From assembly GCF_009811555.1 (NCBI RefSeq), contig NZ_BLIN01000005.1, positions 3,233,501 through 3,297,500 of the forward strand: a stretch of DNA of 64,000 bases. Reading direction: 5' to 3'. A program made the translations under genes and the position numbers. Shown here piece by piece: positions 4,253-35,648 of the stretch (position 1 is its first letter; the number at the start of each line of letters is the position of its first letter). The notes under the pieces are model-generated. The model saw only the letters and a list, made by a program, of their open reading frames with translations. It made no database searches and was not told where the DNA came from. Source of the DNA: Streptomyces caniferus. GTDB lineage: Bacteria > Actinomycetota > Actinomycetes > Streptomycetales > Streptomycetaceae.

Positions 4253-5060
4253 CAACACCACCCCCTCGAAAGAAACGGCCAACCCGGCGGTGGACGGCAC
4301 CGAGCTGATCCGCTTCGACAAGGTCACCAAGCGGTTCGGGACCAACACCGTCCTGGACTCCCTGGACTTCACCGTCTCCTCGGGCAAGCACGTCACCCTC
4401 ATCGGCCCGTCCGGTTCCGGCAAGACGACGATCCTGCGGCTGCTGATGACGCTGCTGAAGCCGGACGAGGGCACCATCAAGGTCGGCGGCGAGTACCTGA
4501 CGCACGAGGAGAAGGGCGGCAAGCTCGTCCCCGCCGGGGAGAAGCACATCCGCGAGGTCCGCAAGAACATCGGCATGGTGTTCCAGCAGTTCAACCTCTT
4601 CCCGAACATGAAGGTGCTGCGGAACATCACCGAGGCGCCGGTGCACGTGCTCGGGCTGGACAAGGACGCCGCCGAGGAGCGGGCCCGCGGCCTCCTCGAG
4701 CTGGTGGGCCTGACCGAGCACCTCGACAAGTACCCGACACAGCTCTCCGGCGGCCAGCAGCAGCGGGTCGCCATCGCCCGGGCGCTGGCGATGCGCCCGC
4801 AGGTGCTGCTGCTGGACGAGGTGACCTCCGCGCTCGACCCGGAGCTGGTGGCCGGGGTGCTGGACGTCCTGCGGGACATCGCGCACACCACGGACATCAC
4901 CATGCTGTGCGTCACCCACGAGATGAATTTCGCCCGGGACATCTCCGACGACGTCCTGATGTTCGACGCGGGCCGGGTCATCGAATCCGGTTCTCCGGAA
5001 AAGATCTTCACGGAGCCGGAGCACGACCGCACCCGGGAATTCCTGAGCGCCGTGCTGTGA
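4242..5060 (+). CDS. ehuA: ABC transporter ATP-binding protein, EhuA-like
   Basis: A 272-residue ATPase that powers the EhuCD channel. The Walker A GPSGSGKTT lies near residue 51, the Q-loop in MVFQQFNLFP, the signature LSGGQQQR, Walker B VLLLDEVTSALDPE and the switch His in CVTHEMNFA. The only plausible start is TTG at 4242, overlapping ehuD by 11 bases with GGAG nearby; no ATG occurs before the Walker A region. A strong hairpin follows the stop, so it ends the operon. Confidence 0.88.
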   Translation: MSADNTTPSKETANPAVDGTELIRFDKVTKRFGTNTVLDSLDFTVSSGKHVTLIGPSGSGKTTILRLLMTLLKPDEGTIKVGGEYLTHEEKGGKLVPAGEKHIREVRKNIGMVFQQFNLFPNMKVLRNITEAPVHVLGLDKDAAEERARGLLELVGLTEHLDKYPTQLSGGQQQRVAIARALAMRPQVLLLDEVTSALDPELVAGVLDVLRDIAHTTDITMLCVTHEMNFARDISDDVLMFDAGRVIESGSPEKIFTEPEHDRTREFLSAVL

Positions 5061-5085
5061 ACGACACCCCCTAGGCCCTGAGTCC

Positions 5086-5119
5086 GGGTGGTGCGTCCCC
5101 TCCGGGGGATGCGCCACCC
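5086..5119 (+). terminator. Terminator of the ehuBCDA operon
   Basis: GGGTGGTGCGTCCCC (5086-5100) pairs with the GGGGATGCGCCACCC arm (to 5119), with two G-U pairs and a four-base loop. It is followed by TTTCTCGTTTC and lies 26 bases after the ehuA stop. Confidence 0.85.
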
Positions 5120-5231
5120 TTTCTCGTTTCCGCACACCGGAGCCATGGCGGCCGACGGAATGCGTATCGAGGTGCGCGGTTCGGTCGACAGCAAGGGCCG
5201 GCCCGGATATCGCTGCCAGCGGGTCGCCTCG

Positions 5232-5261
5232 CGGAACCGGCCACGGATATGGCCGGTTCCG
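5232..5261. repeat. 12-bp inverted repeat CGGAACCGGCCA/TGGCCGGTTCCG
   Basis: Perfect arms 5232-5243 and 5250-5261 around a six-base spacer, with no T-run after it. It lies in the gene-free stretch 5120-5545 between the ehu operon and the IclR gene. It could be an operator or a second weak terminator. Confidence 0.5.
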
Positions 5262-5348
5262 TACCCTCCCCGAGCCCTCCCCCGCGTCGCACGGGGTTGC
5301 CGGGTGCCGTGGGGCGCAAAGTGCCAGGACATCCGGGGCCTCATGACC

Positions 5349-5362
5349 TTGGCATATGCCAA
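5349..5362. promoter_or_regulatory. Palindrome TTGGCATATGCCAA upstream of the IclR gene
   Basis: A perfect 14-bp palindrome about 185 bases before the IclR start. It shares its GGCATAT/ATGCC arms with the palindrome at 1900-1911, which makes it a candidate autoregulatory operator. The remaining intergenic sequence shows only a -10-like TATCGT near 5440. Confidence 0.5.
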
Positions 5363-5545
5363 AGTCTCAAGCCCCAGTACAGAAACGCCGAGCACGGCTC
5401 TTTTCAGTCAAGACCCCCTCCATCGAGGGCCGTTGACCGCTATCGTGAGACCCACGCCGTTGTCCGGGATCGGCCGCGCAAGCGCCGGCCGAGACCACCA
5501 ACGACCGTCATGCCGCAAGCGGTAACAACCTGCTAGGGGGACACC

Positions 5546-6304
5546 GTGGCGCTGAAGCCCGAGCCGACCGCGCCGTTCCATTCGGTGCAGTACGCCCTTC
5601 GCGTGCTCGAAACGATCTCCCGGCACGCCGATGGCGTGACCGACGCGCAGATCGCCCGCGAAACGGGCCTGCCCCCGGGCCAGCTCGCCCACATGCTGTC
5701 GATGCTCCGGCGCGAGGGCTATGTCGAGCAGATCGCCGACGGGGCCTATGTCGTCGGCGCCTCGCTCCTGCTGCTGGGCACGGGCGGCGACCGCGACCAG
5801 GCCCTGCGCGACAAGCTCCAGCTCACCCTCGACCACCTGCGCGACTCGGTCGGCGCGGCGGTCTACATCAGCCGGTACATCGACGGCGAGGTGAAGATCC
5901 TCCACTACGCCGACGGACCGCTGGCCCCCAAGGTCAACGAGTGGGCGGAGTTCCACCGCACGGCGCACGCCAGCGCGGTCGGCAAATGCCTGCTGGCGCA
6001 GCTCGACCACGACGGCCGCAAGGACCACCTCTCCCGCCACAAGACCGCCCGGCTCACCTCCCGGACGATCACCAATGAGAAGGTCCTGTTCCACAAGCTC
6101 GACAGCCAGCCGCCTACGGTCCCCGTCCTCGACCTGCAGGAGTACGCCGTCGGCACGGTCTGCGCGGCCGTACCGATCACCGCCGGCGCGACGGTCGGGT
6201 GCCTCGCCCTCTCCATGCCGCTGGAGCACGCCCACCGTCTGCGCCAGGCCGCCGACGCCCTGAACCGGCAGGCCGCTCCGGTGCTGCTGTCGCTGGCGAT
6301 CTGA
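5546..6304 (+). CDS. IclR family transcriptional regulator
   Basis: A 252-residue regulator with an N-terminal winged HTH (about residues 10-70, SVQYALRVLETISRHADGVT) and a C-terminal GAF-like effector domain (about 80-250). GTG 5546 is preceded by AGGGGGACACC. IclR proteins bind small carboxylic or aromatic effectors and usually control an adjacent catabolic or transport operon. Its placement beside ehuBCDA and the two related palindromes suggest that it controls that cluster, but it could equally be a stand-alone gene next to the tRNA. Confidence 0.88.
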   Translation: MALKPEPTAPFHSVQYALRVLETISRHADGVTDAQIARETGLPPGQLAHMLSMLRREGYVEQIADGAYVVGASLLLLGTGGDRDQALRDKLQLTLDHLRDSVGAAVYISRYIDGEVKILHYADGPLAPKVNEWAEFHRTAHASAVGKCLLAQLDHDGRKDHLSRHKTARLTSRTITNEKVLFHKLDSQPPTVPVLDLQEYAVGTVCAAVPITAGATVGCLALSMPLEHAHRLRQAADALNRQAAPVLLSLAI

Positions 6305-6442
6305 GCCGGGGCGCGCGGCGGGCCGCGATCCCGGCGGGTACGGCAGGCACGGCCGGGACCGGCCGGCGCCACCCGTCGCCCTCCCCCGCCGCCGTGGTCA
6401 TGAGCACCCCTCTCGACCAGGTAGTATTTCTTTCGTCAGCGC

Positions 6443-6516
6443 GCGCCGCTAGCTCAGTTGGTTAGAGCAGCTGACTCTTAATCAGCGGGTCCGGGGTTCG
6501 AGTCCCTGGCGGCGCA
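6443..6516 (+). tRNA. tRNA-Lys (anticodon CTT), copy 1
   Basis: A 74-base cloverleaf. The acceptor GCGCCGC/GCGGCGC is perfect, the D arm is GCTC/GAGC, the anticodon stem GCTGA/TCAGC encloses loop CTCTTAA, the T arm is CGGGG-TTCGAGT-CCCTG, and the discriminator is A. CCA is not encoded. It is identical to the copy at 11698-11771. Confidence 0.96.
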
Positions 6517-6522
6517 CGTAAC

Positions 6523-6558
6523 AAGTGGGCGTTTCCGGTTCTCCGGGGACGCCCACTT
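6523..6558 (+). terminator. Terminator after tRNA-Lys copy 1
   Basis: AAGTGGGCGTTTCC pairs with GGGGACGCCCACTT (right arm 6545-6558, some G-U pairs), followed by TGTGTTGTC. It begins seven bases after the tRNA. Confidence 0.8.
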
Positions 6559-6612
6559 TGTGTTGTCGGGACGGACGCGGACCCGGAGACGGATTGCCGA
6601 GCCGGGCCCAGG

Positions 6613-8382
6613 TCACCGGTCCAGGAGAGCGGCCCGGTCGTGAGCGCGGTACAGCGCCAGCAGTGCGGACCGGTCCTCGGCGGTGAACGGGCGGTAGGCG
6701 CTGCCCGCGGGGACGGCGGGCGCGGGGCCAGCCGAGGTCACCGGGGACCACCAGACCGGATCCGGGCACCGGAACCCGGCCCGCCGCAGCGCGACCCGAT
6801 GCACCTTGTGGGTGGCGGTCACCGGCAGCGCGTCCATGGTCCGTACGAACCGGGGTGCCATCTTCGTGCCCAGGTCGGGCTGGGCCGCGAGAAAGGCCAC
6901 GAAGTCGTCCGGGTCGAACACGGCACCGTCCCGCAGCGCCAGGGCCGCCATGACCTGGTCCCCGGCTACGGGGTCGGGCACCGCGTACACGGCCACGCCG
7001 GCGGCCGGGGCGTACCGGGCGAGGATGTTCTCGATCATCGCGGCGGCCAGATTCTCGCTGTCGACCCGCAGCCGGTCGTCGGTGCGCCCGACGAAGTGGA
7101 AGAACCCCTCGGTGTCCCGGAAGAAGAGGTCACCGGTCCAGTACCAGCCAGCGCCGACCCGGCCTTCGCCCCGGCCGCGGGTGCGGGCGGCGGTCGCCTC
7201 GGCATTGCGCCAGTAGCCCTCGAAGGAGCTGCGGCCGCGGTTGACCAGCTCCCCTATCGCCCAGTCCCCGTTGAGCAGCCGGCCGGCCGGATCGAGGCGG
7301 CCGCGCGGCAGCTCGTCGCCGGTCTCCGGGTCGACGACGGCGAGATCGCCTCCGGGGGCGGGCCGGCCGATGGCGCCGGGCGGGGTGTCCGGTGTGCGCT
7401 GGATCGCGGCGCCGCCCTCGGAGGAGCCGTACCCCTCGGTCAGGCGGACGCCGAACCGTTCGGCGAAGCGGGCGGCGTCGACGGAGCCCGCCTCGGTGCC
7501 GAACCCGCGGCGCAGCGGGTGGTCCCGGTCGTCGGGGGCGGGCGGGGTGGCCAGCAGGTACTGCACGGCCCGGCCGACGTAGGTGAAGTAGGTGGCCCCG
7601 TAGCGGCGTACGTCGGGGAGGAAGGCGGAGGCCGAGAAGCGGGGGCGCAGTGCCACGGCGGCGCCGCGGGCGAGCGCCGGGGCCCAGCCGGCGATCACGG
7701 CGTTGCCGTGGAACATCGGCATACAGAGGTAGTGGACGTCGTCCCGGCGCACCCCGAGCTGCCCGGCGAGCGCATGCCCGGCGGCGGCCAGCCGGCCCTG
7801 GGTGCACACGGCGGCCTTGGGCGCGCCCGTGGAGCCGGAGGTGAAGTAGAGCAGCATCCGGGAGGCCGGCGTCGGGGTGCACAGGGCACCGCGGCCGGCC
7901 GCGATCTCGCCGGGCGTCGCGCCCTCGTACGGCCCGAGGAGTTCCCGGTAGGCCGGGTCGTCCACGACGAGGATCCGCTCGGGCGGGAGGGGGAGGCCGG
8001 GGCCGGCGAGCAGCGGCAGCAGGGCACGTTCGGTGATCAGCAGCGCGCAGTCGGTATGGCCGATGTCGCGGGCGAGCTCCGGTCCGCGGCGGGTGGGGTT
8101 GATCCCGGCGACCGCGGCCCCGGCGAGCGCCGCCGCGCTCAGCCACAGCGGGTACTCGGGCACATTGCCGAGCAGCACCCCGAGGTGCGGCGGTGCGCCC
8201 CGCGGCAGCAGCTCGCCCAGCAGCGCTGCCCGCGCGGCCGCGCCACCCGCCAGCTCGTGATGGGTGAGGACGAGGTCCCCGTACTTCGCCCCCGCCCGGT
8301 GGTCGCCCCACTGCGCCTGTACGAGCTCCGCGACGGTGGCGGCGCCCGAACTGCCCTGCGCGCTGGTGCCGTTGACTGCCAT
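6613..8382 (-). CDS. Long-chain fatty-acid-CoA ligase / AMP-dependent synthetase (FadD-like)
   Basis: A 589-residue adenylate-forming enzyme that activates a fatty or other carboxylic acid with ATP and CoA. The AMP-binding P-loop YFTSGSTGAPKAAV lies near residue 190, the A5 motif is LTEGYGSSEG, the hinge region carries WYWTGDLFFRDTEGFFHFVGRTDDRLR, and the C-terminal Lys region contains PVTATHKVHRVALRR. The C-terminus has an extra tail of about 50 residues. ATG 8382 (MAVNGTSAQ) is chosen because an operator-like inverted repeat sits directly before it; a GTG at 8445 with GAAGG upstream is the alternative. Substrate chain length is not readable. Confidence 0.87.
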   Translation of the reverse strand: MAVNGTSAQGSSGAATVAELVQAQWGDHRAGAKYGDLVLTHHELAGGAAARAALLGELLPRGAPPHLGVLLGNVPEYPLWLSAAALAGAAVAGINPTRRGPELARDIGHTDCALLITERALLPLLAGPGLPLPPERILVVDDPAYRELLGPYEGATPGEIAAGRGALCTPTPASRMLLYFTSGSTGAPKAAVCTQGRLAAAGHALAGQLGVRRDDVHYLCMPMFHGNAVIAGWAPALARGAAVALRPRFSASAFLPDVRRYGATYFTYVGRAVQYLLATPPAPDDRDHPLRRGFGTEAGSVDAARFAERFGVRLTEGYGSSEGGAAIQRTPDTPPGAIGRPAPGGDLAVVDPETGDELPRGRLDPAGRLLNGDWAIGELVNRGRSSFEGYWRNAEATAARTRGRGEGRVGAGWYWTGDLFFRDTEGFFHFVGRTDDRLRVDSENLAAAMIENILARYAPAAGVAVYAVPDPVAGDQVMAALALRDGAVFDPDDFVAFLAAQPDLGTKMAPRFVRTMDALPVTATHKVHRVALRRAGFRCPDPVWWSPVTSAGPAPAVPAGSAYRPFTAEDRSALLALYRAHDRAALLDR

Positions 8383-8397
8383 GGCGTCGCAGGGTAG

Positions 8398-8412
8398 CTG
8401 ACGTAGCGTCAG
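8398..8412. promoter_or_regulatory. Inverted repeat CTGACG-TAG-CGTCAG before the acyl-CoA ligase
   Basis: Perfect six-base arms around TAG, ending 16 bases upstream of the ATG at 8382. Its size and symmetry suit a TetR-type lipid-metabolism repressor. No such regulator is adjacent, so the assignment is inferred. Confidence 0.45.
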
Positions 8413-8465
8413 ATGTGGAGCGGGTGGGGTGATGGGCCGGACCACGGGGCCCTTCAGGGGGAAAT

Positions 8466-8501
8466 CGGGGCCTCCCCGGGGGGAAAGGCGGGGAGGCCCC
8501 G
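8466..8501. terminator. Terminator of the LPMO gene
   Basis: Arms CGGGGCCTCCCC (8466-8477) and GGGGAGGCCCCG (8490-8501) are perfect complements. On the minus strand the stem lies 40 bases after the LPMO stop and is followed by ATTTCCCC. Confidence 0.8.
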
Positions 8502-8541
8502 TGGGGCGAGGGGCGTGCCGTGCCCCGGCGCCCGGCGGGCG

Positions 8542-9135
8542 TCAGGAGAGGTCGACGTCCGAGCAGGCGTAGAAGGCGTTGCCCGTGTCGGCGATGTTCC
8601 AGACGCCGAGGATGAGGTGGCGGCCGGACTTCTGGGTGGGGACGGTGCCCTGGTGCTGGACGGTTTCGCCCGGCCGGGCGCCGCCCATGGGAACGGTCAT
8701 GAACGGCTGGGGCTCCAGGTCGGCACGGGTGAGCGGCTTGCCGGGGTCGTAGCCGTCCTTGGTGATGAAGTACTCGAAGTCGGTGGTGGCATGCCGTGCG
8801 GTCAGCCGCCAGGTGAAGGTGTAGCCCTGCCCCGCGGAGAGCTTGGTGCCGGGCCAGTTGCCGCCGCGCGGGTCGTCCAGCTGGGCGAAGTTCTCGTGCC
8901 CACCGGAACAGATCCTGCCGTCCGCCGGGCCGGCGGCCGGGAAGCCCTTGGGGCCCTCGACGCTCTGCGGTTCGTACTGGATCGCACCGCAGTCCTTGAC
9001 GGTGCCCTTGGCGCAGAGCGCCTGCCGACTGGGGGGTGCGTCGCTGTAGCCGTGACTGGAGGCGCTGCCGGTCGAGAGCAGGGAGACGCCGAGGACGCCC
9101 AGGCCGATCACGGCAGCACTGATCTTTTTGCGCAT
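8542..9135 (-). CDS. lpmP: Secreted AA10 lytic polysaccharide monooxygenase (LpmP-like)
   Basis: A 197-residue secreted copper enzyme that oxidatively cleaves chitin- or cellulose-type glycans. The signal peptide covers residues 1-27 (MRKKISAAVIGLGVLG...), and cleavage after ASS exposes His28 as the N-terminal copper ligand. The second histidine-brace ligand is His115 in ARHATTDFEYF, and the axial Phe region is GNAFYACSD. It is a single catalytic domain without a binding module. ATG 9135 begins the signal peptide. A DasR-type box lies 70 bases upstream. The symbol rests on proximity to cslA-glxA, which matches the S. coelicolor SCO2833 neighbourhood as I recall it, so it is less certain than the family. 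Confidence 0.9.
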   Translation of the reverse strand: MRKKISAAVIGLGVLGVSLLSTGSASSHGYSDAPPSRQALCAKGTVKDCGAIQYEPQSVEGPKGFPAAGPADGRICSGGHENFAQLDDPRGGNWPGTKLSAGQGYTFTWRLTARHATTDFEYFITKDGYDPGKPLTRADLEPQPFMTVPMGGARPGETVQHQGTVPTQKSGRHLILGVWNIADTGNAFYACSDVDLS

Positions 9136-9179
9136 GCTTCGCTCCTGAAGAACGTGGGGGAGTTCCGTGCCGGAGAAAT

Positions 9180-9215
9180 GCAGTGCACTGCGATGCCGAG
9201 CGTGCGGTCTAGACC
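9180..9215. promoter_or_regulatory. DasR-type box (GGTCTAGACC core, 9206-9215) and 12-bp palindrome upstream of the LPMO
   Basis: GCGGTCTAGACCAAGT at 9204-9219 has a perfect GGTCTAGACC core, close to the DasR consensus ASTGGTCTAGACCAST. A second perfect palindrome, GCAGTGCACTGC at 9180-9191, lies between it and the start codon. DasR control would induce the LPMO when GlcNAc-derived sugar phosphates accumulate. Confidence 0.65.
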
Positions 9216-9342
9216 AAGTGGCAGAGTAAGCGGGCGGCGTTGGGCATGTCCATACCAATGACCGGCCGCGCCCGGCCCCTTGCCGGGAGCGGAGCGGCGA
9301 CGATGCGGGCCGGGCCATGGCACGGCCCTGGTCGGGGGCGCG

Positions 9343-28156: not shown

Positions 28157-28369
28157 GCGCAGGACGGAAGCACGCTGGACGGGCCCGGCCGGGCATACGG
28201 AAATCCGGCGCACGTCACCCGTTCCCCCGGCCGGGCCCGCCCGCGGCACGGTAGCAGCGCCGCGGCGGGCCCGGCCGTTATTTGTCCGTGCGTGAGGACC
28301 CGGGCCCGCGGGCCCGGTGCGGCACTTAGCGTCCGGTGGGATTCCAGTAGTGACGAACCGGGAGGCCGT

Positions 28370-29017
28370 GTGCGGTCCATCCTCAGCAATTCCGCAACAT
28401 CCGGGCGGACCATCGCCACCGGACTGGTGGTAGCCGCGCTCGTGGCCACGCTCGCGGCGCTGCTGCTGCCCGTCCAGCTCTTCGGCGAGTCCGCGGCCGC
28501 GGCGACCACCACGCTCACGTACGACGACGACGGTGGCGGCACGGTCGAGACCCGCTACGGTCCGCTCACCGCGATGGACCGGGACTTCGTGCGCAAGGTC
28601 AAGCTGGCCGGGCTGTGGGAGCTGCCCTCGGGCCGGATGGCCCAGCAGCGCGGGACGACCCCCGCCGTCCGCACGGCCGGCAACCACCTCGTGGCGGGAC
28701 ATACCGAGCTGGACCGGCGGTCGAACGAGGCCGGGCAGGCGCTGGGCGTCGACCTGCCCACGGAGCCCAACGTCGCCCAGCAGGGCTGGCTCGGGCAGCT
28801 CAAGGCCGCCCAGGGAAAGGAGTTCGACGCGACGCTCGCCGAGTTGTTGCGCCGGGCCCACGGCAAGGTCTTCGGGCTGGTCGCTCTGGTCCGCGATCAG
28901 ACCAAGAACACGATGGTGCGTGCCCTGGCGGACCGCGCCAACAGCGTCGTGCTGGACCACATCACGGTCCTGGAGAAGACCGGGAACGTCGACTTCAACA
29001 CCCTGCACAGCAGCTGA
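28370..29017 (+). CDS. Exported DUF4142 domain protein
   Basis: A 215-residue exported protein. An N-terminal hydrophobic segment (about 15-38, IATGLVVAALVATLAALLLPV) acts as signal or anchor. The ferritin-like four-helix DUF4142 domain follows (about 65-210), including LTAMDRDFVRKVKLAGLWELPSG and AGNHLVAGHTELDRRSNEAG. GTG 28370 has GGGAGG upstream. It is followed 94 bases later by the DUF1996 gene in the same direction and may share its transcript. The function is unknown. Confidence 0.84.
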   Translation: MRSILSNSATSGRTIATGLVVAALVATLAALLLPVQLFGESAAAATTTLTYDDDGGGTVETRYGPLTAMDRDFVRKVKLAGLWELPSGRMAQQRGTTPAVRTAGNHLVAGHTELDRRSNEAGQALGVDLPTEPNVAQQGWLGQLKAAQGKEFDATLAELLRRAHGKVFGLVALVRDQTKNTMVRALADRANSVVLDHITVLEKTGNVDFNTLHSS

Positions 29018-29111: not shown

Positions 29112-30620
29112 ATGAGGCAACGGCAACAGGCCCATAAACGCTCGCGTTTGACGAACAGAATGCTCATCGGCGCCACCGCCCTCCTGCTGGGCGGCGGTGG
29201 GCTCGCCGCGTACGCCACCACGGCGCTGGCGGGCAACAGCACCACCTCCGGCGCGACGTCCGGCCATCAGCACACCGCGGCGGCCGCCTTCACCATCTCC
29301 TGCCCCGATGTGGGCGAGCGGCTGCGGACCGTCCCGCGCAGCGCCCAGCTCCCGGTCTCCAAGGGACTGTCGGCCCTCGACAAGCAGGTGCACGACGCGT
29401 ACCACAAGATGATGGGCGGCAGCGGTAGCGCCGTCATGTCGCCGCTCAAGGCGCAGCGGGAGAAGACCATCAGGATGATGGTCACGGCGATCGCCAAGAA
29501 CACCAAGCGGCCGGGCTACCTGCTGAAGATGAGCGGCTGTACCACCAAGCCCGTCAACGAGGGCGCCGGGGCCGGCGGCAACGATTCCACGAAGACCGTG
29601 AAGGAGGGCTGGTACCAGGGTCAGAACCAGACCCAGAACCAGACCCAGGACCAGCAGCAGAGCCAGCAGCCGGGCCAGGACCCGAACCAGCAGGGTCAGG
29701 ACCCGAACCAGAACGGCGGCCAGCAGGGCCAGGCCGGCGGCCCCTCCCCCGACGACTTCGTCGACATCACCACCGTCCAGCCGAACGCGGACGCCCCGCC
29801 GTTCGCCGCCCCCAAGGGGGGCAACGCCTCCACCGGCACCTTCACCACCGAGTGCGGCCGCAATGAGGACGGCCACTTCAACTCCGACAACGTCATCGTG
29901 ACGCCGGGCGTCAGCAACGGCGCGCACCACACCCACGACTACGTCGGCAACAAGGCCACCGACGCCTTCGCCGACGACAACAAGCTCGCCGCCTCCGACA
30001 CCACCTGCAACAACGGCGACCAGTCCACCCACTACTGGCCGGTGCTGCGCAAGCTGGACGGGAACGCGGAGCAGAAGCCGGGCGCCGCGCAGGACGCCAA
30101 CGTCGGCACGACGCTGACCCCGGCCACGGTGACCCTGAAGTTCCGCGGCAGCCAGGTCGGCCAGGTCGAGGCCATGCCGCGCTTCATGAAGATCATCACC
30201 GGTGACGCCAAGGCGTTCACCAACGGCACCAAGAACGCCAACGCCTCCTGGAGCTGCACCGGCTTCGAGGACCGGCAGCTGAAGGACAAGTACCCGCTGT
30301 GCCCGCAGGGCTCGCAGGTCGTGCGCACCTTCGCCTTCCAAAACTGCTGGAACGGCCGGGACATCGACAGCGGCAACCACCGCGACCACGTGACGTTCTC
30401 GGACCAGAACGGCGTCTGCCCCAACGGCTTCAAGGCGATCCCGCAGCTCACCCAGCGGATCACCTACGACGTCCCGCAGGGCGACAGCTTCGCGGTGGAC
30501 AGCTTCCCCGAACAGCTGCACAAGCCGGTGACCGACCACGGTGACTTCATCAACGTGATGCCCGACCAGCTGATGAGCAAGGCGGTCGACTGCATCAACA
30601 GCGGCCGCAACTGCACCTGA
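29112..30620 (+). CDS. Secreted DUF1996 protein with Gln/Asn-rich linker
   Basis: A 502-residue secreted protein. A signal-anchor lies at about 17-40 (MLIGATALLLGGGGLAAYATTALA). Residues ~55-160 form a first helical region, ~175-215 are an Asn/Gln/Pro-rich linker (NQTQNQTQDQQQSQQPGQ) and the DUF1996 domain occupies ~215-500, with many Cys (for example SWSCTGFEDRQL, PLCPQGSQVV, FQNCWNGRDIDSGNHRDHV) and His-rich NGAHHTHDYVGN. DUF1996 is best known from secreted fungal and actinomycete proteins of unknown function. Two strong hairpins follow the stop. Confidence 0.88.
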   Translation: MRQRQQAHKRSRLTNRMLIGATALLLGGGGLAAYATTALAGNSTTSGATSGHQHTAAAAFTISCPDVGERLRTVPRSAQLPVSKGLSALDKQVHDAYHKMMGGSGSAVMSPLKAQREKTIRMMVTAIAKNTKRPGYLLKMSGCTTKPVNEGAGAGGNDSTKTVKEGWYQGQNQTQNQTQDQQQSQQPGQDPNQQGQDPNQNGGQQGQAGGPSPDDFVDITTVQPNADAPPFAAPKGGNASTGTFTTECGRNEDGHFNSDNVIVTPGVSNGAHHTHDYVGNKATDAFADDNKLAASDTTCNNGDQSTHYWPVLRKLDGNAEQKPGAAQDANVGTTLTPATVTLKFRGSQVGQVEAMPRFMKIITGDAKAFTNGTKNANASWSCTGFEDRQLKDKYPLCPQGSQVVRTFAFQNCWNGRDIDSGNHRDHVTFSDQNGVCPNGFKAIPQLTQRITYDVPQGDSFAVDSFPEQLHKPVTDHGDFINVMPDQLMSKAVDCINSGRNCT

Positions 30621-30818: not shown

Positions 30819-31874
30819 TCAAAGGCCGTTGACACGGGCCTCACGGGCCACGCCCAGCGGGCGTATGGACGAGGCGACGGCCCGTGCGCGACGGCCGGCG
30901 CGTGCGCGGTAGCTGCGGACATGTGCCATCAGCCGGCGGCTGCGCAACGCCATCTCCAGCTCGAAGCGGGTGCGCGGATCGCGCAGCACCGGGCCGAAGA
31001 GCTTCTCGATCTGACGCAGGCGGTATCGCACCGTCTGGGGGTGCACATGCAACAGTTTCGCCGCCTCGGGCGCTCCGCCGCCCTCCAGCCACGCCAGCAG
31101 CGTGACTTCGAGCCGCTCGCTCTGCCGGGGCGTCAGCTCCTCCAGCGGGCCGAGCCAGCGGGAGGTCAGCGCGTCCGCCAGCGACTCGTCCTGGAGCAGC
31201 AGCAGCGCCGAGAGGTGGTCGTCGACGAACGCCGGCCGCGACTCCGGACCGACCCGGCCCGGGGCCAGCGTCAGCAGGTACCGGGCCCAACGCAGCGAGG
31301 ACGCGGTGTCGGTGGCCGGTACGACGTGTCCGACCGCGGCCGGCCGGCCCTTGAGCGCCGCCTCCAGGCGGGCCCGGGTCTGGGTGGCCGGGTCGGGGAC
31401 GAACAGGCAGGTGTACCCGTCGACGGAGCCGATGAGGGCGTGGCCGAGCGCCGCGGCGAGCTGCGCCGCCTCGGCGGGTGTGGCGAGCACGACGGCCTGG
31501 AGGGTGTCGGGGACCGGCCAGCCGGCCGCGCGGGCCAGGTCGTCCAATCCCTCCTCCGGCAGCTCTCGTTGTCCGGCGAGGACGTCGAACAGGTCCTGGC
31601 GGGCCCGGGCAACGGGCATCGGAGTCACCACGGACGGAACCGCCCTAGGTTTACTCTCCGACTCTTTTTGGTACCCAAGAACTGTCAGCAAGGCCTGTTC
31701 AAGCGCCCATTGTGCCTCTTCTACGGGAGTATCCCCGAGAAGTGCGGACAATGCGGGAAATCCGCGTTGCAACTCCGCGACCAACTTGTCGGCGAGATCC
31801 GGAAGTTCATTTCTGACTACCCGGTTCCACTCGCCTCGTGGACGCGACCAGATGCGGTTCAGGAGATCACACAT
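30819..31874 (-). CDS. PucR/CdaR-type helix-turn-helix transcriptional regulator
   Basis: A 351-residue regulator. The first ~150 residues form an unclassified sensor-like region, a GGDEF-like PucR middle domain follows and the C-terminal HTH_30 domain is clear (LLAWLEGGGAPEAAKLLHVHPQTVRYRLRQIEKLFGP). ATG 31874 (MCDLLNRIWSRPR) has GAGGT just upstream; a GTG at 31958 would add 28 residues without a good ribosome site. It is divergent from the redox module starting at 32197, so control of that module is possible but unproved. Confidence 0.85.
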   Translation of the reverse strand: MCDLLNRIWSRPRGEWNRVVRNELPDLADKLVAELQRGFPALSALLGDTPVEEAQWALEQALLTVLGYQKESESKPRAVPSVVTPMPVARARQDLFDVLAGQRELPEEGLDDLARAAGWPVPDTLQAVVLATPAEAAQLAAALGHALIGSVDGYTCLFVPDPATQTRARLEAALKGRPAAVGHVVPATDTASSLRWARYLLTLAPGRVGPESRPAFVDDHLSALLLLQDESLADALTSRWLGPLEELTPRQSERLEVTLLAWLEGGGAPEAAKLLHVHPQTVRYRLRQIEKLFGPVLRDPRTRFELEMALRSRRLMAHVRSYRARAGRRARAVASSIRPLGVAREARVNGL

Positions 31875-31958
31875 CGCTACCTCGATCCTGGCGGGGATGC
31901 GGCTGTTACTGGGGATTGGCGCCCCCCGGGCGCCTGAGTCGGCATCATCCGGAGTCAC

Positions 31959-32196: not shown

Positions 32197-32946
32197 ATGT
32201 CCGCACCGCGTATGCAGAGCCGCCGCGCCACGCACCGAGCCCGGCCCTCGCCGTTCGTGCCTCGCCCCCGGCGTCCCCCGAACGAACCCGGGCCGCCGGC
32301 CGGCCGACCGGCCGGCGGCTTCGCCGGAACTGCCATGCTCCGCCCGGCACTTCCGGCCTCACTGCTGCTCTTCCTCGCCGTCGTGCTGCACTCCGGCGCG
32401 ATGGACGCCCTGCTGAGCTTCCTCGACTTCGGCGCCGGTGTGCTCGCGCTGGTCTCCCTGTCGGTCACCGTGCTGTGGGGCCTGGCCGCCACCGACCGGA
32501 TGGTGCTGAAGTCCGGTCACCGGCTGCTCGCCCAGGCCGTGCACCGCGGCACCGGCATCGCCGGCCTCGGCTTCCTCGCCCTGCACATCTGGATCAAGAT
32601 CGCCCAGGGCCACACCGATGCGACAGCCGCCGCGGTGCCCTTCACCGATGGCGCCCGCCCCGGCCTCATCGGCCTGGGCACCCTCGCCGCCTACGTGTTC
32701 ATCGCCGTCGCGGTGACCGGCGCGGTGCGCGGCGCCTTCACCGGCATCACCGCCTCCCGGTGGTGGCGGGGCCTGCACATGAGCGCGTACGCCGCCTGGG
32801 GGTTCGCCCTGGTGCACGGCCTCAGGGCGGGCCGCCCCGCGGCCGGTTACGCCCTCGTCGGCTATGCCATCTGCCTCGTCGCGGTGGCCGTACGACTCGC
32901 GCTCCGGATGCGCGACTCACGCAGGAACACAGGAGAACTCCCATGA
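32197..32946 (+). CDS. Bis-histidine membrane cytochrome / ferric-reductase-like protein
   Basis: A 249-residue membrane protein with a Pro/Arg-rich cytosolic N-terminus (1-46) and about five to six helices. Two helices carry the ferric-reductase/NOX pattern of paired histidines: His116 and His130 (VHRGTGIAGLGFLALH) and His194 and His207 (LHMSAYAAWGFALVH), spaced 14 and 13 residues apart. This is the geometry for two stacked b-type haems that carry electrons across the membrane. ATG 32197 has GGGAGGT upstream. No FAD/NAD domain is attached; the next gene, overlapping by ATGA, supplies a flavin/iron-sulfur NADH module. Confidence 0.82.
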   Translation: MSAPRMQSRRATHRARPSPFVPRPRRPPNEPGPPAGRPAGGFAGTAMLRPALPASLLLFLAVVLHSGAMDALLSFLDFGAGVLALVSLSVTVLWGLAATDRMVLKSGHRLLAQAVHRGTGIAGLGFLALHIWIKIAQGHTDATAAAVPFTDGARPGLIGLGTLAAYVFIAVAVTGAVRGAFTGITASRWWRGLHMSAYAAWGFALVHGLRAGRPAAGYALVGYAICLVAVAVRLALRMRDSRRNTGELP

Positions 32947-34496
32947 CCGCCCCCGCTCCCACCCGCCCGCTCCCGGCCGTCCCCGGCCCTTCGGAGCCCG
33001 TACCGACGCTGGCATCCTTCGGCCCGCCGCGCCTGCTGGCCGGCCTGGACGAGGTGCCGCGCATGGACCGGGTGGCGCACCTGTCCCGGCACGGCAGCCT
33101 GCCCCAGCTCAACTCCACGGAGCTGGTGGCGCTGGCCGAGGACATCGATCTGCGCGGCCGGGGAGGTGCGGGCTTCCCCTTCGCCCGCAAGCTCACCGCC
33201 GTCATGGACGGGATGCGGCGCGCCGACGGCAAGGGCGCGGTGGTCGTCAACGGCAGCGAGGGCGAGCCCAGTTGCCTCAAGGACACCGCGCTGCTGCTGG
33301 GCGCCCCGCACCTGGTGATCGACGGCGCCCTGCTGGCCGCCGACGCCCTGGGCGCCCAGGAGGTCGCGCTCGGGGTGACCCGCATGGACGTACTGAACTC
33401 CGTGCAGCGGGCCATCGACGAACGCGGTCCGGTGCGGCCGACGTTACGGGTCACCCTGCTCACCGAACGGTTCGTCACCGGCGAGGGCTCCGCGATGACG
33501 AACGGGCTGGGCGGCGGCCCCGGCCTCCCCTCGGGCCGCAAGATCCGCTCCAGCGAGCGCGGCCTGAACGGTGTGCCGACGCTGCTGTCCAACACCGAGA
33601 CCTACGCCCAGCTCGCCGTGGCCGCCAGGCTCGGTGCGCTCGGCTACCGCTCGGTGGGCCTGCCCACGGAGCCCGGCACGCTGCTGCTGACGGTCGCCGG
33701 CAGCCGGGTGGTGGAGGTGCCCTACGGCGTCTCGCTGGCCCGGGTCCTGGCGCTGTGCGGCATGGACCAGGGGCAGGGCGTGCTGATCGGCGGCTACCAC
33801 GGCACGTTCGTGTCGCCCACCGACTCGCTGACCGCGGCGCTGTCGAAGGAGTCGCTGGCCGAGTACAAGGCGGTGCTCGGTGCCGGTGCGGTGCTGCCGC
33901 TGCCGTACGACACCTGCCCGGCGGGCGAGACGGTACGCGTCGCGCAGTGGATGGGCGCCGAGTCGGCCGGCCAGTGCGGCCCCTGCGTGCTGGGCCTGCC
34001 CGCGCTCGCCGAGCAGCTCGACCGCGCCGTACGGGGCGGCGGTGCCGCCGCTCTGGAGGCCGTACAGGCGCGGATGCGGGCGGTCGAGAAGCGCGGCGCC
34101 TGCAGCCATCCGGACGGCACCGCGCGCTTCGTGGCGTCGGCCCTCGCCGCCTTCCCCGAGGAGTTCGAGCGCCATGCGCAGGGGTTCGGCTGCGGCCGCC
34201 CGGTGACCGGCGCGCTGCCGGTCAGCGAGACCCTGCCGCTGCCGTCCACCGTCCCCCTGCCGATGCCCACCGTCTCCCGGGTGGTGGCGCCGCCGCAGGA
34301 ACGGCTGCTGGTCGACTGGACGCTGTGCCGCGGCCACGGCCTGTGCGCGGACGTGGTGCCCGGCATCATCAAGCTCGGCCCGGACGGCTACCCGGAGAAG
34401 GCCAGCATGCCGCTGCCGGCCCGGATGCGGCGCCGCGCGCAGCTCGCGGTCCGCCGCTGCCCGGCACTCGCGCTGCGGGTGCAGGGCGGCAACTGA
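32943..34496 (+). CDS. NuoF-like NADH-binding flavoprotein fused to a ferredoxin
   Basis: A 517-residue fusion. The NuoF part (about 40-420) carries the FMN/NADH motif LRGRGGAGFPFARK, an ExEP-like GSEGEPSCLKD, a SLBB region (GTLLLTVAGSRVVEVPYGVSLARVL) and the iron-sulfur region. There the usual SCGxCxPC is SAGQCGPC, with Cys345, Cys348 and Cys387 but Ala342 in place of the first Cys. Residues ~452-517 form a small ferredoxin with Cys462, Cys468 and Cys506 (LCRGHGLCADV...RRCPAL), the three-Cys [3Fe-4S] pattern. ATG 32943 overlaps the cytochrome stop. It likely passes NAD(P)H electrons to the membrane haems (inference). No Nuo complex subunits are nearby. Confidence 0.85.
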   Translation: MTAPAPTRPLPAVPGPSEPVPTLASFGPPRLLAGLDEVPRMDRVAHLSRHGSLPQLNSTELVALAEDIDLRGRGGAGFPFARKLTAVMDGMRRADGKGAVVVNGSEGEPSCLKDTALLLGAPHLVIDGALLAADALGAQEVALGVTRMDVLNSVQRAIDERGPVRPTLRVTLLTERFVTGEGSAMTNGLGGGPGLPSGRKIRSSERGLNGVPTLLSNTETYAQLAVAARLGALGYRSVGLPTEPGTLLLTVAGSRVVEVPYGVSLARVLALCGMDQGQGVLIGGYHGTFVSPTDSLTAALSKESLAEYKAVLGAGAVLPLPYDTCPAGETVRVAQWMGAESAGQCGPCVLGLPALAEQLDRAVRGGGAAALEAVQARMRAVEKRGACSHPDGTARFVASALAAFPEEFERHAQGFGCGRPVTGALPVSETLPLPSTVPLPMPTVSRVVAPPQERLLVDWTLCRGHGLCADVVPGIIKLGPDGYPEKASMPLPARMRRRAQLAVRRCPALALRVQGGN

Positions 34497-34682
34497 CGGT
34501 CCGGGCACGGTTTTTGCCCGCGGAGAAAATTCTTCGGCACCGTTGAACGCCCGGCACCCCGTAGCCCGTATTCCCCCGGCGACGGCACCCCGCCGGGGGC
34601 CCCGGGCCCCCAGGGCACCGGGCCACCGTCCCAGCCCTCACCTCAGCAAGCGACGGAACCACCACCCGACAGAGGAGACATC

Positions 34683-35648
34683 ATGATCACTCGACGTCGT
34701 GCGGGTCTCGCGGCCACGGCGGTCGCGACCCTGGCCCTGACCGCCGCCTGCGGCAGCAGCGGCAACCAGAGCGCGGGTACCCCCACCACCGACAACGTCC
34801 AGCCCGCCGGCCAGGGCACCAGCGACTACGGCTACGGCTCCTCGGGCTCAGGTTCGGGCTCCGCCGGCGGCTACGGCGGCCAGGCGGGCGGCGACAACGG
34901 CGGCAAGGCCCCGCAGGCCGTCAGCGCCGGCACACTGGCCCTGCACCAGGACACCGAGCTCGGCCCGGTCGTCACCGACTCCAAGGGCATGACCCTCTAC
35001 CGCTTCGACAAGGACACCGCGGACCCGTCCAAGTCCAACTGCTCCGGCTCCTGCGCCACCACCTGGCCGGTGGTCCCCTCCGACGGTGCCAGCGCCCCGG
35101 CCGGCATCGACAAGAGCAAGCTGGGCTCGGTCACCCGCGCCGACGGCACCAAGCAGCTCACCATCGGCGGCTGGCCCGCCTACCGCTACGCCAAGGACAC
35201 CAAGCCCGGCGACACCAAGGGCCAGGGCGTGGGCGGCACCTGGAACGCGCTGGCCGCCGACGGCAAGAAGGCCGGCACCCAGAAGCCCGGCGACGTCTCG
35301 GTGTTCGACCACCCCCAGCTCGGCTCGCTCCTCGTCGACGGCCAGGGCCGCACCCTCTACCGCTTCAACAAGGACAGCGCCTGGCCGATGAAGTTCGGCT
35401 GCAACGACGCCTGCCTGGACACCTGGAAGCCCGCCAAGCCGGCCGACCGCTCCAAGCTCAACGGCATCGCCCCCAAGCTCATCTCCACCGTCACCCGCCC
35501 CGACGGCACCCGTCAGCTGGCCGTCGACTGCTGGCCCGTCTACTGGTTCACCGGCGACAAGCAGCCCGGTGACATCAACGGCCAGGGCAAGATGGGCCTG
35601 TGGTTCGCGGTCTCCAAGGAGGGCAAGAAGATCACGACGACGCCGTAG
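34683..35648 (+). CDS. SCO0930-type lipoprotein with secreted repeats (PF03640-like)
   Basis: A 321-residue surface lipoprotein. The signal ends at LTAAC (Cys23), followed by a Gly/Ser/Tyr-rich spacer (about 40-80). Repeated units of the Lipoprotein_15/secreted-repeat family then appear: LYRFDKDTADPSKSNCSGSCATTWPVV and LYRFNKDSAWPMKFGCNDACLDTWKP, each with a CxxxC pair, alternating with VTRADGTKQLTIGGWPAYRY and VTRPDGTRQLAVDCWPVYWF. ATG 34683 is preceded by GAGGAGACATC. It follows the NuoF-ferredoxin gene in the same direction and could be the outer partner of an electron-export chain (inference). Its 3' end overlaps the convergent transporter gene by 17 bases. Confidence 0.86.
   Translation: MITRRRAGLAATAVATLALTAACGSSGNQSAGTPTTDNVQPAGQGTSDYGYGSSGSGSGSAGGYGGQAGGDNGGKAPQAVSAGTLALHQDTELGPVVTDSKGMTLYRFDKDTADPSKSNCSGSCATTWPVVPSDGASAPAGIDKSKLGSVTRADGTKQLTIGGWPAYRYAKDTKPGDTKGQGVGGTWNALAADGKKAGTQKPGDVSVFDHPQLGSLLVDGQGRTLYRFNKDSAWPMKFGCNDACLDTWKPAKPADRSKLNGIAPKLISTVTRPDGTRQLAVDCWPVYWFTGDKQPGDINGQGKMGLWFAVSKEGKKITTTP

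Follow-up and report, generated by a model that had tools for sequence, protein, structure and literature searches.

The stretch of DNA analysed here, referred to as the window, comprises 64,000 nucleotides of the Streptomyces caniferus genome (contig NZ_BLIN01000005.1, assembly GCF_009811555.1) and contains genes encoding a six-helix membrane protein that is probably a cytochrome (CYT), a protein in which a NuoF-type flavin mononucleotide (FMN)/NADH domain is followed by a ferredoxin (NuoF-Fd), and a lipoprotein of the SCO0930 family (LIPO). A preliminary description of this DNA had recognized these three genes on one strand at 32197–35648, the first two joined by an ATGA overlap, and had proposed that they form a unit carrying electrons from NADH outward across the membrane. 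The three genes and the overlap were confirmed (Table 1), and the overlap suggests joint translation of CYT and NuoF-Fd. The proposed unit was incomplete, however: genes for a DUF4142 protein and a DUF1996 protein, which belong to a larger conserved gene set, lie upstream, outside the interval described earlier. The gene for a divergent PucR-type regulator sits between the DUF1996 and CYT genes.

Table 1. Genes and sequence features of the electron-export locus, with coordinates in the window
Feature	Position	Strand	Basis
DUF4142 protein, probably exported, member of the conserved set	28292..29017	+	Pfam, neighbourhood
DUF1996 protein, probably exported, CYT-linked subfamily, member of the conserved set	29112..30620	+	Pfam, neighbourhood
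Regulator of the PucR type (HTH_30), divergent from CYT and conserved in the Streptomyces form of the cluster	30819..31958	-	
CYT, membrane protein, 249 aa, six-helix, no flavin domain	32197..32946	+	Pfam scan, structure model, alignment
His116 codon, putative inner haem ligand	32542..32544	+	
His130 codon, putative outer haem ligand	32584..32586	+	
His194 codon, putative inner haem ligand	32776..32778	+	
His207 codon, putative outer haem ligand	32815..32817	+	
ATGA stop/start overlap of the CYT and NuoF-Fd genes	32943..32946	+	
NuoF-Fd, NuoF-type FMN/NADH domain, three-Cys cluster site and fused CxxHxxC...CP ferredoxin, 517 aa	32943..34496	+	
Cys345 and Cys348, NuoF-type cluster site; Ala replaces the first of the usual four Cys	33975..33986	+	
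Ferredoxin cluster Cys462, Cys468 ... Cys506	34326..34460	+	
LIPO, SCO0930-family lipoprotein, 321 aa, four PF03640 stretches, two domains with CxxxCxxxW	34683..35648	+	

The structure model of CYT (mean predicted local distance difference test score, pLDDT, 66) contains six long helices, formed by residues 51–65, 68–99, 106–136, 155–176, 184–210 and 217–244. His116 and His130 are located on the third predicted helix and His194 and His207 on the fifth, at a spacing of 13–14 residues. Both His pairs are kept in 80 of 80 aligned proteins. In alignment A1, some pieces had been delimited by position and include residues that precede the probable start. The four histidines are also kept across 121 homologous loci (the wide stretches read plus 12 named Streptomyces loci, with the window locus excluded), the sole exception being a position cut off by the end of a contig (L228). 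The N-terminus is basic, and Lys and Arg account for 20 of 108 inner residues versus 4 of 59 outer residues, by which count both ends of CYT are predicted to be cytosolic. The window CYT taken by itself matched no Pfam family, neither PF01794 (Ferric_reduct) nor a flavin domain, and PF01794 was matched by 22 of 30 aligned CYT members at E ≤ 0.1, with a best value of 1.6e-10. CYT is thus probably a bis-haem, six-helix protein of the ferric reductase/NOX superfamily, of the MsrQ-like type; the homology of MsrQ to this superfamily is stated in the available text of PMC8238504. CYT resembles NOX, SpNOX and eukaryotic ferric reductases in its membrane fold and in its pattern of four histidines, but no FAD/NADPH domain is fused to CYT, and the flavin domain is provided by the separate NuoF-type protein. 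The preliminary description was accurate in placing the four histidines at a two-haem ferric reductase/NOX spacing, in reporting a protein without a flavin domain, and in its choice of fold type, which is supported by the PF01794 matches, the fold resemblance and the conservation.

Pfam analysis of NuoF-Fd identified PF01512, PF10589 and PF13459, the first two of which are also found in NuoF of complex I. The cysteines of the NuoF-type cluster are C345, C348 and C387, and those of the ferredoxin are C462, C468 and C506, in agreement with the earlier report of a NuoF-like FMN/NADH domain and a three-Cys ferredoxin with one NuoF cluster Cys lacking. The position of the first cluster Cys is occupied by Cys in six of seven NuoF relatives that are not linked to CYT, and by Ala in the window protein. 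Among 110 cytochrome-linked copies, 107 have Ala or Ser there, and the motif was not found in the other three; the loss of this Cys is therefore a family trait and no oddity of the window. In sequence, the solved proteins nearest to NuoF-Fd are the flavin subunits found in hydrogenases, complex I and formate dehydrogenases. Unlike NuoF of complex I, NuoF-Fd scored below the NuoF equivalog level (142.9 bits against TIGR01959, cut-off 558.65), carries a fused ferredoxin and, with one cluster Cys replaced, does not contain the four-Cys N3 site. Among copies from loci lacking an ApbE match, 51 of 55 have the ferredoxin in frame with NuoF, against 0 of 55 where ApbE was matched; in the ApbE-matching loci a separate downstream ferredoxin match was often seen. 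The window genome also contains a second, distant NuoF-like gene (L034, G000:C3:395000-409000, positions 6071–9285) with PF01512 and PF10589, in which Pfam detects no ferredoxin domain; it neighbours a Rieske ring-hydroxylating oxygenase gene, and no CYT lies nearby.

Among named relatives, those from Streptomyces are the closest. CYT was found in 24 of 31 near genomes, in 45 of 118 genomes of the class, and in 32 of 61 genomes sampled from another family of the same class (f17; 60 genera). The 121 loci do not include every match: 7 of the 51 f17 CYT matches and several Streptomyces matches lie outside them. Twelve of the 121 were found through NuoF-Fd, so that NuoF is present there by construction, and the same NuoF-Fd search also yielded six loci of distant NuoF relatives without CYT. 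Partners were detected with our own hidden Markov model profiles built from few members, of which the four ApbE seeds were confirmed by Pfam (4/4). DUF4142 and ApbE were additionally tested by Pfam in 23 genomes selected because they have the set, namely the window genome (G000), two near genomes with a window-type cluster (G012 and G018) and 20 genomes of f17. Matches to extracytoplasmic function (ECF) sigma factors were confirmed by Pfam only in L111, L179, L180 and L193.

NuoF was located within 3 kb of CYT in 111 of the 121 loci, and in 99 of 109 when the loci found through NuoF were set aside; it was also beside CYT in all of 30 short loci from near genomes except L008, which is a short stretch. 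This linkage, proposed in the preliminary description, is thus well supported. It also argues against an improbable alternative, in which a soluble oxygenase or P450 receives the electrons of NuoF-Fd and the adjacency of NuoF-Fd to the cytochrome is secondary. CxxHxxC ferredoxins serve P450s, and the oxygenase gene beside the second NuoF-like gene of the same genome would fit such a role, but the frequency of the NuoF partner at CYT loci and the joint translation suggested by the overlap both speak against it.

The third gene of the proposed unit was less constant. LIPO was found within 5 kb of CYT in 23 of the 121 loci; it is present in 26 of the 31 near genomes and adjoins CYT in only three, G000, G012 and G018, lying elsewhere by contig or position in the others where both occur. 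In the window clade, unlike in these other near Streptomyces relatives, LIPO follows NuoF-Fd: CYT, NuoF-Fd, LIPO and the PucR-type regulator occurred together in 12 of 12 named Streptomyces loci, and the stretch read also contained DUF1996 in 11 of them and DUF4142 in 10. LIPO as a fixed third gene was accordingly rejected as a general rule and kept for the window clade only, and its part in the module is putative. Of the earlier expectation that the three genes would stay adjacent in other genomes, the part concerning CYT and NuoF-Fd held, and the part concerning LIPO mostly failed. The 3' end of the LIPO gene overlaps a convergent sodium:solute symporter-family gene by 17 bases (window positions 35632–35648). 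In two other loci of the same genus, from genomes in which no CYT was found (L179 and L180), LIPO, DUF1996 and an ECF sigma factor are again clustered; in L180 (G004:C2:5743000-5760000, positions 4847–8890) the genes encode an ECF sigma factor, a zf-HC2 protein, a DUF1996 protein, a CHRD-domain protein and a small Lipoprotein_15 protein.

DUF1996 and DUF4142 were found within 7 kb of CYT in 32 and 33 of the 121 loci, respectively. In f17, 20 genomes from 19 genera have CYT, NuoF, DUF1996 and DUF4142 together according to our own profiles, with LIPO present in nine of them and an ECF sigma factor match in 18; the sigma factor of L111 is of the ECF type by Pfam and adjoins a zf-HC2 protein. Gene order in these genomes varies and includes sigma | LIPO-DUF4142-DUF1996-CYT-NuoF, CYT-NuoF-DUF4142-DUF1996, and an arrangement in two divergent halves. 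The f17 DUF1996 places form two sets by score: in the higher-scoring one, 0 of 24 lie within 5 kb of CYT, and in the lower-scoring one, 19 of 25 do. The six lower-scoring places away from CYT are in G156, G157, G172 and G193 and, as second copies, in G185 and G188; G157 has a weaker DUF1996 beside CYT by our own profile. Pfam detected DUF4142 within about 4 kb of the set CYT in 22 of the 23 set genomes, with G012 as the exception. The DUF4142 and DUF1996 genes therefore belong to a larger conserved unit, with shuffled order and with or without LIPO; these two genes and, in f17, the ECF sigma factor had been missed in the earlier gene set.

These associations also bear on the possibility, which we regard as unlikely, that CYT and NuoF-Fd form a quinone- or oxygen-linked NADH oxidase and that the nearby DUF and lipoprotein genes merely answer the same stress. 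The CYT fold resembles that of the superoxide-making NOX, MsrQ is described as a quinone-binding protein in the available text of PMC8238504, and 30 of the 121 loci have no adjacent partner. A shared stress response, however, does not readily account for DUF4142 and DUF1996 staying with CYT through changes of gene order in many genera, nor for so sharp a split between the DUF1996 subfamilies.

In the same family of cytochromes, ApbE, a flavin transferase, was found within 2.5 kb of CYT in 55 of the 121 loci, and in none of the 121 did it share a locus with DUF1996, DUF4142 or LIPO. Pfam analysis of the 23 set genomes placed ApbE near the set CYT in none, elsewhere in 13, and nowhere in the remaining 10. 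G147 and G185 each hold one ApbE-linked and one set-linked CYT locus, which indicates that the two kinds coexist. When places were compared by eye, the 10 kb around CYT in ApbE-linked loci such as L040, L054 and L113 contained no FMN_bind gene.

The only FMN_bind gene of the window genome (C5:371264) has an ApbE gene beside it (C5:371535-372176) and lies 2.9 Mb from the window; flavinylation as the outer step at the window locus was rejected on this basis. That region (L150, G000:C5:366000-377000) also contains a weak CYT-like match and is probably a separate flavin-type system. FMN_bind was found at no place in G012 or G018. One flavinylation-like motif, scanned for in exported frames near 69 CYT, was absent near the five set-linked CYT among them; its matches were limited to two stretches, L054, where the frame is Ser-rich, and L150, where it is the FMN_bind gene already known. 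It is very improbable, therefore, that the module feeds a flavin path as its ApbE-linked kin do, through ApbE and FMN-binding proteins whose genes lie at other places in the genome. The distant FMN_bind and ApbE genes of the window genome, the ApbE genes elsewhere in set genomes and the number of cytochromes with an adjacent ApbE would be in keeping with such a path, but the complete separation of ApbE from the set loci, its absence from 10 set genomes, the lack of FMN_bind in both near genomes with the window-type cluster and the blank motif scan all argue against it.

The first CYT tree, which came with a warning of long branches meeting, separated a group of 26 cytochromes from the ApbE-linked ones with a likelihood-ratio branch support (SH-aLRT) of 99. 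This group comprised the window-type kin, same-genus paralogues beside leucyl-tRNA synthetase, and the f17 type. In a larger tree, the set-linked label required six changes, and a single clade was not rejected (approximately unbiased test, p-AU 0.249). The paralogous CYT-NuoF pair of the same genus is divergent from a gene identified by Pfam as leucyl-tRNA synthetase in L043 and L047, where the C-terminus of CYT is extended by a low-complexity tail about 200 residues long; judging by protein length, L045, L046 and L048–L050 may have such a tail too.

The putative outer partners were examined for conserved residues. LIPO belongs to NCBIfam NF040526 (SCO0930 family lipoprotein; 417.3 bits, cut-off 275), and the four PF03640 stretches together with this match bear out the earlier recognition of a lipoprotein with repeated CxxxC...W units. 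Its Cys23, the putative lipid-modified N-terminal Cys, is invariant in 76 aligned proteins, and CxxxCxxxW was present in 24 of 24 domains compared, one domain per locus. A confident structure model of LIPO matched no fold in the PDB. SCO0930 is named among the SigU-regulon genes of S. coelicolor in the available text of PMC6295645, and PMC3610822 and PMC2267785 list it in their tables of transcripts with altered levels. For the DUF4142 protein (PF13628; 76.7 bits, cut-off 27), all 34 sequences compared share Asp96, Glu110, His137, His190, His223 and Glu228. In the DUF1996 protein (PF09362; 89.6 bits, cut-off 27), Cys248, His273, His275, Asp276, Cys299, Asp303, His476 and Asp478 are kept in all covering rows (26–31 of 34 rows). 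Compared with the fungal DUF1996 signature HxHxxxG ... DxSxYWxP ... CP ... HxDxxxGW given in the accessible part of PMC4738358, the window protein has HxHxxxG (H273, H275), CP and HxD (H476, D478), whereas its DxS..YW stretch is differently spaced (D303, W309) and the final GW is missing. The same source describes Beauveria DUF1996 deletions as more sensitive to oxidation and to several metal ions, but not to Cu2+. Judged by residue type, the conserved positions of DUF4142, DUF1996 and LIPO would suit metal or thiol redox sites; in Pfam, DUF4142 is a domain of unknown function and Lipoprotein_15 (PF03640) a secreted repeat of unknown function.

Taken together, the window most probably encodes an NADH-driven transmembrane electron-export module with exported DUF1996, DUF4142 and Lipoprotein_15 partners in place of an ApbE-made flavoprotein, a reading to which we assign a probability of about 0.6. 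What the analysis shows directly is the sequence features, the fold resemblance, the conserved neighbourhood, and the absence of ApbE from the loci and from some genomes. The mechanism that we infer, which extends to the haem, FMN and Fe-S content, the direction of electron flow, the final acceptor, the export of the two DUF proteins, the protein contacts and the job of the system, would begin with the reduction of FMN by NADH in the cytosolic NuoF-type protein. The three-Cys cluster and then the fused ferredoxin would relay the electrons to CYT, where they would reach first the inner haem (His116/His194) and next the outer haem (His130/His207). On the outer face, they may be delivered to the neighbouring exported proteins, namely DUF1996 with its conserved His, Asp and Cys, DUF4142 with its conserved His, Glu and Asp residues, and the lipoprotein with its CxxxC motif. 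Together, these proteins might perform a reductive task in the envelope, for example the reduction or handling of metals or the repair of oxidised proteins. In this CYT group, the DUF and LIPO partners would occupy the place that the ApbE flavin transferase holds beside other cytochromes of the family. The outward route from NADH drawn in the preliminary description is supported by the His pairs and fold, the inside-facing ends and the linkage to NuoF-Fd, although not as the three-gene unit originally described.

Among known systems, MsrPQ offers a precedent, in which the membrane haem protein MsrQ hands electrons to the exported MsrP; the window system differs in having a dedicated donor, NuoF-Fd, and DUF1996, DUF4142 and Lipoprotein_15 proteins as neighbours. 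The available text of Meheust et al. 2021 (PMC8238504) reports that MsrQ-like systems are broadly conserved in Actinobacteria, that 31 clusters include a NuoF-like (PF10589) protein, and that NAD(P)H is the proposed donor. The electron-export reading is therefore sound, and its core was already in print, in outline, for the class. The likeness to these MsrQ-like flavinylation systems comprises the six-helix PF01794-type protein, the two predicted haem sites, the NuoF-like partner and the proposed route from NAD(P)H to the outside. The apbE gene and FMN-binding gene that define such a cluster are not found at the window, and the window-type and f17 loci differ further in having DUF4142, DUF1996 and often Lipoprotein_15 without ApbE, and a ferredoxin fused to NuoF. 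In the available text of the follow-up to that study, the word NuoF does not occur in the preprint PMC10979944 or in PMC11334425, nor lipoprotein in PMC11334425, and among the matches listed, as judged from titles and abstract openings and with supplementary files outside the scope, no paper links DUF1996, DUF4142 and this cytochrome.

What is new, then, is a larger conserved set that works without ApbE as far as the genomes show. A distinct bacterial class may exist, although we put this at somewhat less than an even chance, of outward electron-transfer systems whose carriers or enzymes outside the membrane are not the ApbE-made flavoprotein but DUF1996, DUF4142 and Lipoprotein_15 proteins, which are probably metal-centred; such systems would be driven by NADH through NuoF-ferredoxin and a bis-haem cytochrome and, in many genera, switched on by ECF sigma factors. 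The association links three open families to one NADH-driven haem module and thereby makes of them one system that can be tested as a whole, for which the cytochromes of the same family that lie beside ApbE, sometimes in the same genome (G147 and G185), offer an internal comparison. If this proposal is true, it would provide the first bacterial redox role for these three uncharacterised families.

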